Below are positions 13,036 to 16,823 of a DNA stretch of 64,000 nt, piece by piece. A program made the position numbers and the translations under genes. Below the pieces are notes generated by a model. The model saw nothing but the letters and a program-made list of their open reading frames with translations, did no database searches and had not been told where the DNA came from. Location of the stretch: positions 1,834,001 to 1,898,000 of the forward strand of contig NZ_CP026100.1 in assembly GCF_003722335.1 (NCBI RefSeq). Reading direction: 5' to 3'. The number at the start of each line of letters is the position of its first letter. Within the stretch, counting starts at the first letter, position 1. This stretch comes from Caulobacter flavus. Lineage in GTDB: Bacteria; Pseudomonadota; Alphaproteobacteria; Caulobacterales; Caulobacteraceae.

Positions 13036-13509
13036 CTAGATCGAGAGGCGTTCGGCGGCGACGCCGGCCGCGCGCAGGGCCGCCAGGCGGGCGAAGGCCA
13101 GGGTCAGGGCCTTGCGCCGGGCCGGGGCGAGGGGAGCGACGGGCGCGGCCCGGACGACGGCCCCGCCGAAGCCGTCGGCGACGATCAGGCCCGGCTCCTG
13201 CGGCAGGATCCCGTCGGGAAACTGCGGCGCGACGGCGAAGTGGAAGGCGTCGCAATAGGGCGCGTACTCGCCCCACTTGCGGTCGACGCGATAGTCCTCG
13301 ATCCCCGATTTGACCTCGACGATGACGATGTCGCCCTTGGGCCCCAGGGCCATCAGGTCGGCGCGGCGGCCGTTGGGCAGGGTCACCTCGGCCAGCGGCG
13401 CATAGCCCAGGTCGACCAGCAGCCGCGCCGCCCCGCGCGTGACCGTCAGGGTGGTCTCGGGGCGGCCCATGGCCGAGGGGGCGAGGGTGATGTCGACGAC
13501 GACGTCCAT
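13036..13509 (-). CDS. mmcB: MmcB-family DNA repair protein
   Basis: The roughly 157-residue protein has a PD-(D/E)XK nuclease-like core: the acidic residue in LPNGRRADLMAL, then IVIVEVKSG with Glu-X-Lys, and the conserved DRKWGEYAPYCDAFHFAV segment. This matches the alphaproteobacterial MmcB family, linked in Caulobacter to mitomycin C tolerance. The start matters: a LexA box occupies 13522-13536, so the longer ATG at 13545 would put it inside the gene. I chose the ATG at 13509, preceded by GGTGAAAG. The ATG at 13521 is also possible. Expression should be SOS-inducible. It stands alone between the TonB receptor pair and the lipocalins. Confidence 0.88.
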   Translation of the reverse strand: MDVVVDITLAPSAMGRPETTLTVTRGAARLLVDLGYAPLAEVTLPNGRRADLMALGPKGDIVIVEVKSGIEDYRVDRKWGEYAPYCDAFHFAVAPQFPDGILPQEPGLIVADGFGGAVVRAAPVAPLAPARRKALTLAFARLAALRAAGVAAERLSI

Positions 13510-13521
13510 GGCTTTCACCAT

Positions 13522-13536
13522 GTTCCATCTTTGTTC
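13522..13536. promoter_or_regulatory. LexA (SOS) box GTTC-N7-GTTC
   Basis: GTTC at 13522-13525 and GTTC at 13533-13536 are separated by exactly seven bases, the known alphaproteobacterial LexA site. It abuts the 5' end of mmcB, a gene known to belong to the SOS response in Caulobacter. Confidence 0.85.
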
Positions 13537-13582
13537 GCGCTTCAAGCCCGATCCCTCGCCGCTTGGCGGATAAGGGCTCGCC

Positions 13583-14128
13583 TCAACCCCGCGCGTGCTT
13601 GGTCACTCGCAGGCGCGAGACGTCGTAGCCCATGGCCTTGGCGCGGTCGGTGAGGTTCTGGGTCAGGCCGGGGGTCGGCTTGTCGCGCGTCAGCAGCCAC
13701 AGATAGCGGCCGCTGCCCTCGCCGACGATCGCCCAGCTGTAGTCGTCGGCGTGGTCCAGCACCCAGTAGTCGCCCAGGAAGAACGGGCCGAAGAACGACA
13801 CCTTCAGCTTGGCCCCGGTGGCCTTGTCGACCACCTTGGCCTTGCCCAGGCTGACCTTCTCGATGCCCTCGGGGCCGCCCTTGCGGCAGGTGTTGCGCAC
13901 CTCGACCAGGCCGTCGGGGCGCAGGGAATACTCGGCGGTGACGCCGTCGCAGCCCTTTTCGAAACGGAAGTCGTAGCGGGCGGCCTCGTACCACAGGCCC
14001 AGATACCGGCTCAGCTCCACCGGCTTGGCCGGCTGGGGCGGCCGCGGATTGCCGGGCGGACCCGCTCCGGCGCAGGCCGACAGCGCCAGCAGGGCGGCGC
14101 CGGCGATCGCCAGACTGGCGGCGCGCAC
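13583..14128 (-). CDS. blc: Outer-membrane lipocalin lipoprotein (Blc-like)
   Basis: From the second GTG (14128; GGAGG seven bases upstream) the 181-residue protein has a lipoprotein signal with lipobox LSAC, then a Blc-type lipocalin. The first strand has the LGLWYEAARYDFRFEKGC motif, and WVLDHADDYSWAIVGEG is the conserved second block. Bacterial lipocalins bind lysophospholipids or fatty acids at the outer membrane. It directly follows a second lipocalin gene, and the intergenic ends overlap, so they form a two-gene unit and are diverged tandem duplicates. An alternative GTG at 14134 would overlap the previous stop but lacks correct ribosome-site spacing. Confidence 0.9.
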   Translation of the reverse strand: MRAASLAIAGAALLALSACAGAGPPGNPRPPQPAKPVELSRYLGLWYEAARYDFRFEKGCDGVTAEYSLRPDGLVEVRNTCRKGGPEGIEKVSLGKAKVVDKATGAKLKVSFFGPFFLGDYWVLDHADDYSWAIVGEGSGRYLWLLTRDKPTPGLTQNLTDRAKAMGYDVSRLRVTKHARG

Positions 14129-14130
14129 CC

Positions 14131-14670
14131 TCACGCCTCCGGCTGCTGCGGGAAGACCAGCTTCTCGTAGCCCAGGGCCTTGACCCGGGAGAGGGCGGCG
14201 GCCTTGGCGGCCTCGTCCATCACCGGCTTGCGCGACAGCAGCCAGACGAAGTTGCCGCCGGGCGTGGCCATGATCGCCCAGCTCTCGTCCTCGGCGCGGT
14301 CGAGCACCCAGTATTCCTGCTTCTTCAGGCCGCCCAGGAAGTTCATCGAGAACTTGGCGTTCTCGGACCCGGCGACGATCCTGCCGCTGGTGTTGAAAGT
14401 CTTGGCCTTGCCGGTGGCGCTGTCGCGGCGGCAGACCTGACGCACCGAGAAGCTGTCGGCGCTCTTGGTCGTGAACTCGGTGGTCGGCGCCTCGCAGTTG
14501 CGTTGGCCCGAATTGGGGGTGCGGGCGATCTCGTACCACTTGCCCGAATAGAAGGCCGCGGCCACCGGCTTGGACGGCGGCTGGGCGCCGGCCAGGGCCG
14601 CGGTGGAAAGCGCCAGGACCGGCGTCGCGGCCAGGCTCGCGGCCAGGGACAGGATCAGGCTTACGCGCAT
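14131..14670 (-). CDS. Secreted lipocalin-family protein
   Basis: The 179-residue protein has a cleavable signal peptide without lipobox (cleavage near ALA, residues 20-28), then a lipocalin domain with SGKWYEIARTPN, the conserved C-x-(13-20)-C pair and YWVLDRAEDESWAIMATP. It is the upstream partner of the lipoprotein lipocalin and shares its block order, but lacks the anchoring cysteine. It is therefore likely a soluble periplasmic form. The pair suggests a relay of one hydrophobic ligand between periplasm and outer membrane, an inference from localisation signals only. Confidence 0.9.
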   Translation of the reverse strand: MRVSLILSLAASLAATPVLALSTAALAGAQPPSKPVAAAFYSGKWYEIARTPNSGQRNCEAPTTEFTTKSADSFSVRQVCRRDSATGKAKTFNTSGRIVAGSENAKFSMNFLGGLKKQEYWVLDRAEDESWAIMATPGGNFVWLLSRKPVMDEAAKAAALSRVKALGYEKLVFPQQPEA

Positions 14671-14825: not shown

Positions 14826-15950
14826 CTACTCCGCCGCGATGGTGACCGGGGCGACCCGGTCCTTGAAGTTGATGGCCTGCAGGTGGCGGATGCCTTCCTC
14901 GGCGATGTCGTCGCCGACCATCCGGTCGCCCTCGGCCTTCAGTTCCTCCAGGTCGACGTACATGGCGTAGAAGGCCTTGGTGCGATCGGTGATGATGCCG
15001 GCGTTGAGCAGGGTCTTCACCAGCACCCGGAAGATGTTGGTCTGTTCCTTCATGTGCTCGCGACGCAGGTCGTCGGTCATGATCTGCCCGTACTCCTCGA
15101 CCACCTTGTCGGGATCCAGGCCGAACTCGCGATAGAGGTCCAGCTGCTGGTGCGGCGAGACCAGGTTGAACAGCAGGGTCTGGAAGCAGTGGGCCGCCCA
15201 GTCCTCGATGATGGCGTGCTCCTCGGGCGAGAGCTTGGGCACCGTGCGGTCGGCCCAGATCTTCCCGAACTTGTGGTGGAAGGCCTCGTCGGTCATCACC
15301 AGCTGCAGCAGCTTCTTGCCGAGCGGATCGTGGATTTCCTTGAAGAAGGTGGCGAAGGCGCCCATGGCCAGGCCCTCGACCAGCATCTGCATGCCGATGA
15401 TCTTCTTGTAGACCTCGGGCGCGGCGATTATCTCGACCAGCAGGCTCTTGAGCGCCGGGCCGCACTCGACCGGCTTGCCCCAGCGGGCCTTGATGTACTT
15501 GGCGAAGGCGGTGACGTGGCGCGCTTCTTCGCGGGTCTGGTTGGCGGCGTATTCCTGCGCGCCCTGGTCTTTCAGCACGTGGCACAGGCTGGCCGACAGG
15601 TTCAGCGCGCCCTGCTCGCCGTGCAGGATCGACGAGAAGCTGCGCAGCACCGACTGGTTGATGAAGCGGGTGCGCTGCTTGGGGTCGGAGAGGTGGTTGG
15701 AGACATACTCGGTCGACAGGGCGATCACGAGGTCCTCGGGAACCAGCGGCTGGTTCTCCATGTCGAACGGCTCGTCGAAATCGATGTAGGCCTTGTCGAG
15801 CGGGTCCCAGAAGTGGTCGTGGGTGGCCGAGATGATCTTGTCGAAGGCGCTCGATCGGTTGCCGTACCGGTCGAGCTCGAGCATGGACTCGAAGTCGTCG
15901 GGCGCCACCGCGTCGTACATGGCGTCCTTGGTGATGTTCTTGTCCGTCAC
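14826..15950 (-). CDS. Ferritin-like diiron protein of unknown activity (374 aa)
   Basis: The protein shows two diiron half-sites in a helical bundle: Glu in HGEQGALNLS followed by EEARH, then Glu in VEGLAMGAF followed by DEAFHH. This is the E...ExxH...E...ExxH layout of carboxylate-bridged diiron oxygenases and ferritin-like proteins. Length and motifs do not let me choose between an N-oxygenase/desaturase-like enzyme and a storage-like protein. The GTG at 15950 is preferred (AGGAG seven bases upstream). The ATG-initiated extension to 16034 would overlap the regulatory palindrome. It is divergent from the sirtuin gene across a 19-bp operator-like palindrome. There is no signal peptide, so it is probably cytoplasmic. 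Confidence 0.85.
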   Translation of the reverse strand: MTDKNITKDAMYDAVAPDDFESMLELDRYGNRSSAFDKIISATHDHFWDPLDKAYIDFDEPFDMENQPLVPEDLVIALSTEYVSNHLSDPKQRTRFINQSVLRSFSSILHGEQGALNLSASLCHVLKDQGAQEYAANQTREEARHVTAFAKYIKARWGKPVECGPALKSLLVEIIAAPEVYKKIIGMQMLVEGLAMGAFATFFKEIHDPLGKKLLQLVMTDEAFHHKFGKIWADRTVPKLSPEEHAIIEDWAAHCFQTLLFNLVSPHQQLDLYREFGLDPDKVVEEYGQIMTDDLRREHMKEQTNIFRVLVKTLLNAGIITDRTKAFYAMYVDLEELKAEGDRMVGDDIAEEGIRHLQAINFKDRVAPVTIAAE

Positions 15951-16017
15951 GGTCGGCTCCTCTCCTGTAGGCCTCTCGGCTGCTCGAAAAGGGCCCGTCT
16001 GGCGCGGGCCTCTCGTC

Positions 16018-16036
16018 GAGTGAACACTGTCCACTC
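16018..16036. promoter_or_regulatory. 19-bp operator-like palindrome
   Basis: GAGTGAACACTGTCCACTC is symmetric about a central base with one mismatched pair. It lies 68 bp upstream of the diiron gene GTG and 83 bp upstream of the sirtuin ATG. This length and odd-centred symmetry are typical of TetR-family operators. No tetR gene is nearby in the window. Confidence 0.55.
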
Positions 16037-16118
16037 AAACTTCCGGTACGGTCAAATTAAAAATGACGACGGCGTCACCTTTGCCGCAGCCGCCTGAACC
16101 AGAATGGGAAACCTCGCC

Positions 16119-16823
16119 ATGGCGTTGAACGTCTTTGTGCTGACCGGCGCCGGGGTGTCGGCCGAGAGCGGGCTTGGCGCCTTCCGCGACGAAGGCGGGG
16201 TATGGACGCAGTACGACCTGTCGGAGGTGGCCACGCCCGAGGGCTTCGCCCGCGACCCGGCCAAGGTGCGGGCCTTCTACGACGCCCGTCGCGCCAACCT
16301 GGCGGGCGCCGCGCCCAACCCGGCCCACTTCGCCCTGGCGCGGCTGCAGGCCGGGCTGGCGGCGCGGGGCGGGCGGCTCTTCCTGTGCACCCAGAACGTC
16401 GACGACCTGCACGAGAAGGCCGGCTCGACCAATGTCGTCCACATGCACGGCGAGCTGGCCGTCACCCGCTGCCACGCCTGCGAGGCGACGCGTCCCGATC
16501 CTGGCCCGCTGGACGCCGGGGCGGCGTGCGCCGCCTGCGGCGCGGGCGGCATGGCCCGGCCGCACGTGGTGTGGTTCGGCGAGGTCCCGCTGTTCATGGA
16601 CGAGATCTTCGACGCCCTGGAGGACAGCGACCTGTTCGTCGCCATCGGCACCTCGGGTTCGGTCTATCCGGCCGCCGGCTTCGTGACCGAGGCGCGGCGG
16701 ATGCGGATCCGCACCTGCGAGATCAACCTTGCGCCCTCCGACAACGCCCGCGCCTTCGACGAGCGGCTGTATGGCCCCGCCGGCGAGGTCGTGCCGGCCT
16801 GGGTGGAGGGCCTGCTGGCCTGA
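16119..16823 (+). CDS. cobB: NAD-dependent protein deacylase (sirtuin, CobB class)
   Basis: The roughly 234-residue class III sirtuin has GAGVSAESG at the N-terminus, TQNVDDLHEKAG, catalytic His110 in HMHGEL and a zinc site C-x2-C...C-x2-C. The FYDARR segment supplies the Tyr and Arg pair (Y-x2-R) that recognises succinyl-lysine in E. coli CobB, so desuccinylation as well as deacetylation is likely. The ATG at 16119 has a GGGAA ribosome site. An ATG five codons earlier (16104) is an alternative. Metabolic enzymes, including acetyl-CoA synthetase, are usual targets. Confidence 0.93.
   Translation: MALNVFVLTGAGVSAESGLGAFRDEGGVWTQYDLSEVATPEGFARDPAKVRAFYDARRANLAGAAPNPAHFALARLQAGLAARGGRLFLCTQNVDDLHEKAGSTNVVHMHGELAVTRCHACEATRPDPGPLDAGAACAACGAGGMARPHVVWFGEVPLFMDEIFDALEDSDLFVAIGTSGSVYPAAGFVTEARRMRIRTCEINLAPSDNARAFDERLYGPAGEVVPAWVEGLLA

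Follow-up and report, generated by a model that had tools for sequence, protein, structure and literature searches.

The locus lies in a window of 64,000 nucleotides (the whole stretch of DNA that was analysed, G000:C1:1834001-1898000) of the Caulobacter flavus genome, which consists of one contig of 5.66 Mb. Positions 14826..15950 encode, on the minus strand, a predicted ferritin-like diiron protein of 374 aa, annotated from its open reading frame, ligand conservation, AF2 model and fold matches. We take the GTG at 15950 as the probable start of a frame that is open up to 16034. A divergent neighbour on the plus strand (16104..16823) encodes a SIR2-family sirtuin of 239 aa with a YxxR motif. 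Each of the two proteins has a single match in its own genome at E 0.001. The genes are separated by 153 bp, and this gap contains two palindromes: element B (16018..16036), a 19-bp palindrome of the diiron promoter with the core TGRAC-N3-GTTCA, and element A (16064..16077), an operator-like palindrome of the form TGACG-N4-CGTCA that would be the shared signal of the regulon proposed below. TTGACC at 16050..16055 (minus strand), downstream of element A, is a possible -35 of the diiron promoter, while GACAGT at 16026..16031 (minus strand), inside element B, is a weaker candidate for its -10. In aligned promoters, the former lies in a conserved column block and the latter in the conserved block GACA-S-TGTT.

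Downstream of the diiron gene, and on the same strand, lie a lipocalin gene (14131..14670, Pfam Lipocalin_2), a second, Blc-like lipocalin gene (13583..14101, recognized by Pfam and NCBIfam), and mmcB (13036..13545, Pfam MmcB-like), all three also supported by synteny. The two lipocalin genes form a tandem pair (13583-14670) that adjoins the diiron gene. The latter is 99% identical to genes in records of Caulobacter zeae, C. radicis, and C. endophyticus. We compared the neighbourhood across 79 loci, most of whose records carry the label Caulobacter, Phenylobacterium, or Caulobacteraceae. In the 70 loci with at least 1,500 nt after the last diiron copy, a lipocalin gene was found on the same strand within 3.5 kb downstream in 64, mmcB in 65, and both in 61. 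These two genes are steadier neighbours of the diiron gene than the sirtuin gene is. Three loci (L078, L088, and L090) carry three tandem diiron copies each, flanked by the conserved neighbours, and 7 of these 9 copies have an exact element A of their own. More widely, the diiron family occurs in 59 of 385 Alphaproteobacteria genomes sampled, some of which have several paralogues, and homologues were present in 6 records of the plasmid collection, the best being from Tistrella mobilis (50%).

The predicted six-ligand site of the window protein consists of E112, E142, H145, E192, E222, and H225. All six residues are invariant in 51 close homologues and in 64/64 sequences of a set that includes the window protein, other-family homologues, and 17 distant paralogues, which bears out the claim of the earlier note that the protein keeps all diiron ligands. 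The ligand set E, ExxH, E, ExxH falls on a helical bundle, as seen in the sequences and in the AF2 model (pLDDT 78.3, pTM 0.80, with residues 1 to 32 and 366 to 374 unsure). By its ligand set and predicted fold, the window protein is thus a ferritin-like diiron carboxylate protein. The same note had found no enzyme family to name, and indeed none of the Pfam or NCBIfam families listed reaches its cut-off for this protein. The top match is Pfam AurF (PF11583; 23.4 bits versus a cut-off of 29.6), followed by Pfam ADO (20.2 versus 28) and DUF455 (13.7 versus 34.3), and the NCBIfam models for ADO (TIGR04059; 20.9 versus 222.65), R2lox (NF006200; 14.4 versus 194), and class I RNR R2/NrdF (TIGR04171; 11.1 versus 355) all score far lower than required. 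We did not assign the protein to AurF, R2lox, ADO, or R2.

The structural comparison that the earlier note had called for, with AurF and RNR R2 among the references, gave a ferritin-like fold and no clear family match. The first 50 Foldseek matches of the AF2 model were all to RNR R2, R2lox, and ADO (E 1e-3 to 1.5e-2), and none of the 50 was counted below E 0.001. VIA-align placed CmlI first (Z 19.6 over 267 residues, rmsd 2.9), followed by a putative R2 (19.5), AurF (19.2), and R2lox (19.0), ranks that amount to a tie for the predicted model. When a profile of 26 family members was compared with solved structures, R2lox was the best match (E 2.4e-8), with ADO at E 1.3e-7. The sequence searches of the PDB (E 1; profile, E 0.1) list no AurF, which does not prove its absence.

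We next turned to the intergenic palindromes. Element A reads TGACGCCGTCGTCA on the minus strand (16064-16077) and lies 27 bp on from element B. For the analysis of promoters, 93 diiron promoters of 200 nt were reduced to 73 by removing near-copies, and genes starting within 700 nt of a diiron gene were left out of the 435 controls. Exact element A was present in 66 of the 73 non-redundant promoters from Caulobacteraceae-type loci compared to 6 of 435 controls, and in 86 of 94 diiron copies before near-copies were removed; as the compared sequences are related, these counts do not represent independent events. Element A therefore lies in the promoter and is kept in relatives, as expected of an operator. 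Outside the Caulobacteraceae-type family, 30 of 42 class-level homologues carried element A with at most one mismatch (15 of 397 controls) and 13 of 42 carried it exactly (6 of 397 controls). Furthermore, 8 of 16 distant paralogues sharing 26 to 41% tblastn identity had it exactly, against the same 6 of 397 controls, and the other 8 lacked it. No element A was found within 300 nt of the diiron copies of L142 and of L178 to L181.

Of 109 Caulobacteraceae genomes, 42 contained an extended pattern that includes the TTGAC of the possible -35 (TGACGN4CGTCANTTT-N0-6-TTGAC), and none contained its reversed control. These were 42 of the 52 genomes with the diiron family and 0 of the 57 without it, which leaves 10 of the 52 carriers without the pattern. 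At 44 of its 47 places, a diiron gene followed directly downstream. The remaining three were 91 nt from a CYP153-type P450 gene (L256), 48 nt from a ferredoxin reductase gene (L257), and, within a small predicted ORF, 0.47 kb upstream of an FA_hydroxylase gene (L255).

The C. flavus genome contains nine exact element A sites compared to one control site. Five of the nine are inside called genes, and one is beside a 496-aa ORF; only the diiron/sirtuin gap and a ferredoxin reductase (FdR) site fit the proposed regulon. At the latter, element A starts 24 nt before the called start of the FdR gene, gene starts here being the output of a simple gene caller, and a 2Fe-2S ferredoxin gene comes next. 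All 61 Caulobacter genomes match this FdR at E 0.001, although orthology is not universal. In the best 30 Caulobacter loci of the FdR-ferredoxin operon (80.9 to 100% identity), exact element A was present within 150 nt in 30/30, and a ferredoxin motif followed the FdR in 30/30. At the class level, an exact site lay within 300 nt for only 2 of the best 30 FdR homologues, and one of these 2 is the C. flavus gene itself. FdR is therefore a firm predicted target of element A in Caulobacter and a patchy one in the rest of the class. The arrangement of the two kinds of promoter differs, in that element A is upstream of TTGAC at diiron genes, whereas a possible -35 (TTGC) is upstream of element A at the Caulobacter FdR promoter.

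No close CYP153 is encoded by C. flavus, whose best P450 is 31 to 33% identical, and the link to P450s therefore comes from other genomes. We searched 14 genomes, selected by their diiron copies and hence not a random sample, with the pattern TGACGCNNGCGTCA and obtained 49 sites in 13 of the 14, compared to 1 for the reversed control. By reading the loci, we assigned 13 of the 49 sites to diiron genes, 5 to CYP153-type P450s, 4 to ferredoxin reductases (one of them, in L308, about 0.3 kb away), 2 to ferredoxins, 3 to GMC oxidoreductases, 2 to FMO-like genes, and 1 to an enoyl-CoA hydratase gene 0.28 kb away. Two further sites were at a Coq4/RHH_4 pair and two at glutamate-cysteine-ligase-type genes, while 15 had no obvious target or were inside genes. 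Pfam supported the target-gene labels for the examples tested. Two of the P450s matched CYP153A7 (3rwl) at E 2.4e-162 and 3.8e-169, and those of L256, L289, L293, and L301 were 56 to 96% identical to these two.

In L142, L164, L171, and L172, diiron paralogues directly adjoin a ferredoxin gene; in L174 and L175, their neighbour is a gene for a flavin/2Fe-2S reductase. In L142, a diiron gene, a ferredoxin gene, two CYP153-type P450 genes, one more gene, and another diiron gene follow each other on one strand.

That diiron, ferredoxin, reductase, and CYP153-type genes share element A as a putative operator is, on these promoter comparisons, well supported. A signal shared with alkane-oxidizing enzymes and their electron carriers suggests that the diiron protein oxidizes oily chain molecules. 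We consider it somewhat probable that the protein is a ferredoxin-fed soluble diiron oxygenase for alkyl-chain substrates and a member of a TGACG-N4-CGTCA regulon. A regulator sensing an alkyl compound would act at element A; an NAD(P)H-dependent ferredoxin reductase would reduce the 2Fe-2S ferredoxin, which would pass electrons to the diiron protein; and the latter would activate O2 and oxidize an alkyl substrate of the alkane, fatty alcohol, aldehyde, or acid type. In other Alphaproteobacteria, the regulon would include CYP153-type alkane hydroxylases. In this scheme, we infer the substrate, reaction, and regulator, as well as the binding of the regulator at element A, the feeding of the diiron protein by ferredoxin, and the direction of control. 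Our confidence is slightly lowered by the absence of the operator at the diiron copies of L142 and of the extended pattern in the 10 carrier genomes mentioned above. A bolder form of this proposal, to which we give rather less than an even chance, is that these proteins make up an unrecognized family of soluble, ferredoxin-dependent diiron alkyl hydroxylases, switched together with CYP153 by an undescribed TGACG-N4-CGTCA regulator in part of the Alphaproteobacteria.

The diiron protein might instead be an ADO-like or fatty-acid-modifying enzyme, such as a desaturase or hydroxylase, that acts on lipids of the cell and not on external alkanes. ADO resembles the window protein in sequence around the diiron ligands and is among its nearest solved relatives by sequence profile, the neighbouring genes encode lipocalins, and element A occurs at GMC alcohol-dehydrogenase-type genes, at an enoyl-CoA hydratase gene, and near an FA_hydroxylase gene. 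However, ADO is shorter (220 model positions compared to 374 aa), the NCBIfam ADO score is far under its cut-off, and an operator common to CYP153-type genes points to hydroxylation. We regard this explanation as unlikely.

Less likely still is an AurF/CmlI-like N-oxygenase, or an oxygenase of specialized metabolism, that would have come by chance into a lipid or stress regulon. The predicted ferritin-like diiron fold of the window protein aligns with these two enzymes over about 270 residues, CmlI being the top structural match by VIA-align, and the Pfam AurF model weakly recognizes the family: it is the top match of the window protein, matches 26/26 members of family set A2 at E 0.01 or better, and in one distant paralogue exceeds the cut-off (54.5 versus 29.6 bits). 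Yet the Z-scores of CmlI and AurF are tied with those of RNR R2 and R2lox, and the window protein itself stays below the Pfam cut-off. Furthermore, the third histidine ligand of AurF is presumably located four residues before the ExxH glutamate, and the position counted in this way is V218 in the window protein and Val, Thr, or Ala in 64/64 sequences, so that the third histidine would be missing.

The earlier note had proposed a different partnership, namely an oxygenase and a deacylase under joint control of the 19-bp palindrome. Its prediction of a desuccinylase-type sirtuin agrees with our data: the protein matches SIR2 at 138.8 bits (cut-off, 24) and carries YDAR, an instance of the YxxR motif that we take to be the signature of this type. 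Conservation of the gene pair was only partly borne out. Counting in the 73 of 79 loci with at least 1,000 nt upstream, we found a divergent sirtuin in 28 of 29 loci whose diiron protein is at least 90% identical to that of the window, but in 0 of 44 below 90%. The pair is thus a feature of one Caulobacter clade.

The 19-bp palindrome itself, GAGTGAACACTGTCCACTC, is between the two genes at 16018-16036 and occurs once in the window. It is imperfect, with 8 of 9 arm pairs, and its weight rests on conservation because 19-mers that match as well are not uncommon (the window has 46, and ten single-base shuffles have 17 to 24 each). With at most one mismatch, the core TGAAC-N3-GTTCA was found in 27 of 73 non-redundant diiron promoters compared to 1 of 435 controls, and it is degenerate in C. 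vibrioides-labelled loci. In part of the family, element B is a genuine component of the diiron promoter; it overlaps the possible -10. The palindrome of the note therefore stands as a conserved, operator-like element, but not as a link to the sirtuin, since 23 of the 45 loci lacking the sirtuin had its core, compared to 9 of the 28 that have the sirtuin. Moreover, the note had missed the better conserved element A only 27 bp away, which accompanies the diiron gene in 28 of 28 loci with the sirtuin and in 43 of 45 without it.

For the joint oxygenase-deacylase module, the divergent arrangement with both palindromes in the 153-bp gap speaks in favour within the clade. With the pair absent from the 44 more distant loci and the palindromes about as frequent without the sirtuin as with it, we consider this module very improbable. 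The sirtuin gene looks like a purely local neighbour of the diiron gene, specific to one lineage, which may share the promoter region and might yet be controlled by one or the other palindrome. Conservation ties the diiron gene, via element A, to CYP153-type P450s and to ferredoxin and its reductase, and not to the sirtuin. Finally, an iron or oxidative-stress ferritin-like protein with no oxygenase function would agree with the evidence on the protein itself, which consists of fold and ligands, but is hardly probable given the R2/AurF-type size and ligand set and an operator common to ferredoxin, reductase, and P450 genes.

The proposed ferredoxin-fed alkyl oxygenase has counterparts in known systems. 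R2lox shares the fold and is the best profile match among solved structures, although the window protein is far below the R2lox family cut-off, and one member of that ferritin-like group, GkR2loxI from Geobacillus, is reported to be an alkane monooxygenase (PMC10867098). The CYP153 alkane hydroxylase system, made up of P450, ferredoxin, and FdR, has the same operator in several genomes and the same type of electron carrier, and its genes sometimes adjoin diiron genes (L142 and L148). However, CYP153 is a heme enzyme, to which the diiron protein would offer an alternative as terminal oxygenase. Under the bolder form of our proposal, C. flavus, which has no close CYP153, would rely on the diiron protein as a main terminal oxygenase for its ferredoxin pair. 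Neither diiron oxygenases nor alkane regulons are new as such; this diiron family and its operator appear to be undescribed, as among the matches listed in the open-licence literature no paper was recognizably on either. An unassigned oxygenase family would gain a testable pathway, electron donor, and operator, and an alkane-type regulon shared among Alphaproteobacteria would be predicted. An additional soluble type of alkyl oxygenase, next to CYP153, would be relevant to hydrocarbon turnover and to biocatalysis.

Several candidates for regulators and regulon markers were considered and set aside. LiuR/MerR, CRP/FNR, and RirA were not adopted as owners of element A, because of a misfit in spacing or half-site or for want of proof. 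The RHH_4 (ribbon-helix-helix) protein offered a thin case as regulator, since it is at element A in just 2 of the 14 genomes, where the site is located at a Coq4-family gene with a divergent RHH_4 gene (L279:2176-3302 and L287:2733-3850). Element B did not serve as a regulon marker, as its strict pattern gave in the C. flavus genome one exact site, the known one, and two sites with one mismatch (control, one). One of these two, a relative of element B with the sequence GTGAACATCGTTCAC, is found before an FMO-like gene of this genome (L111, G000:C1:68728-68742).

Some further associations were observed. In C. flavus, an Hsp70 (DnaK-like) gene is preceded at about 160 nt by one exact element A (L182, G000:C1:1232547-1232560). 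A gene for an MMPL/RND-type transporter adjoins a diiron homologue in four regions (L144, L145, L148, and L149), and its label was tested by Pfam for L149. In two related genomes, element A is located 65 nt before a gene of the same family (L290:3114-4481 and L296:1585-2952), which in L290 matches Pfam GCS2, glutamate-cysteine ligase.
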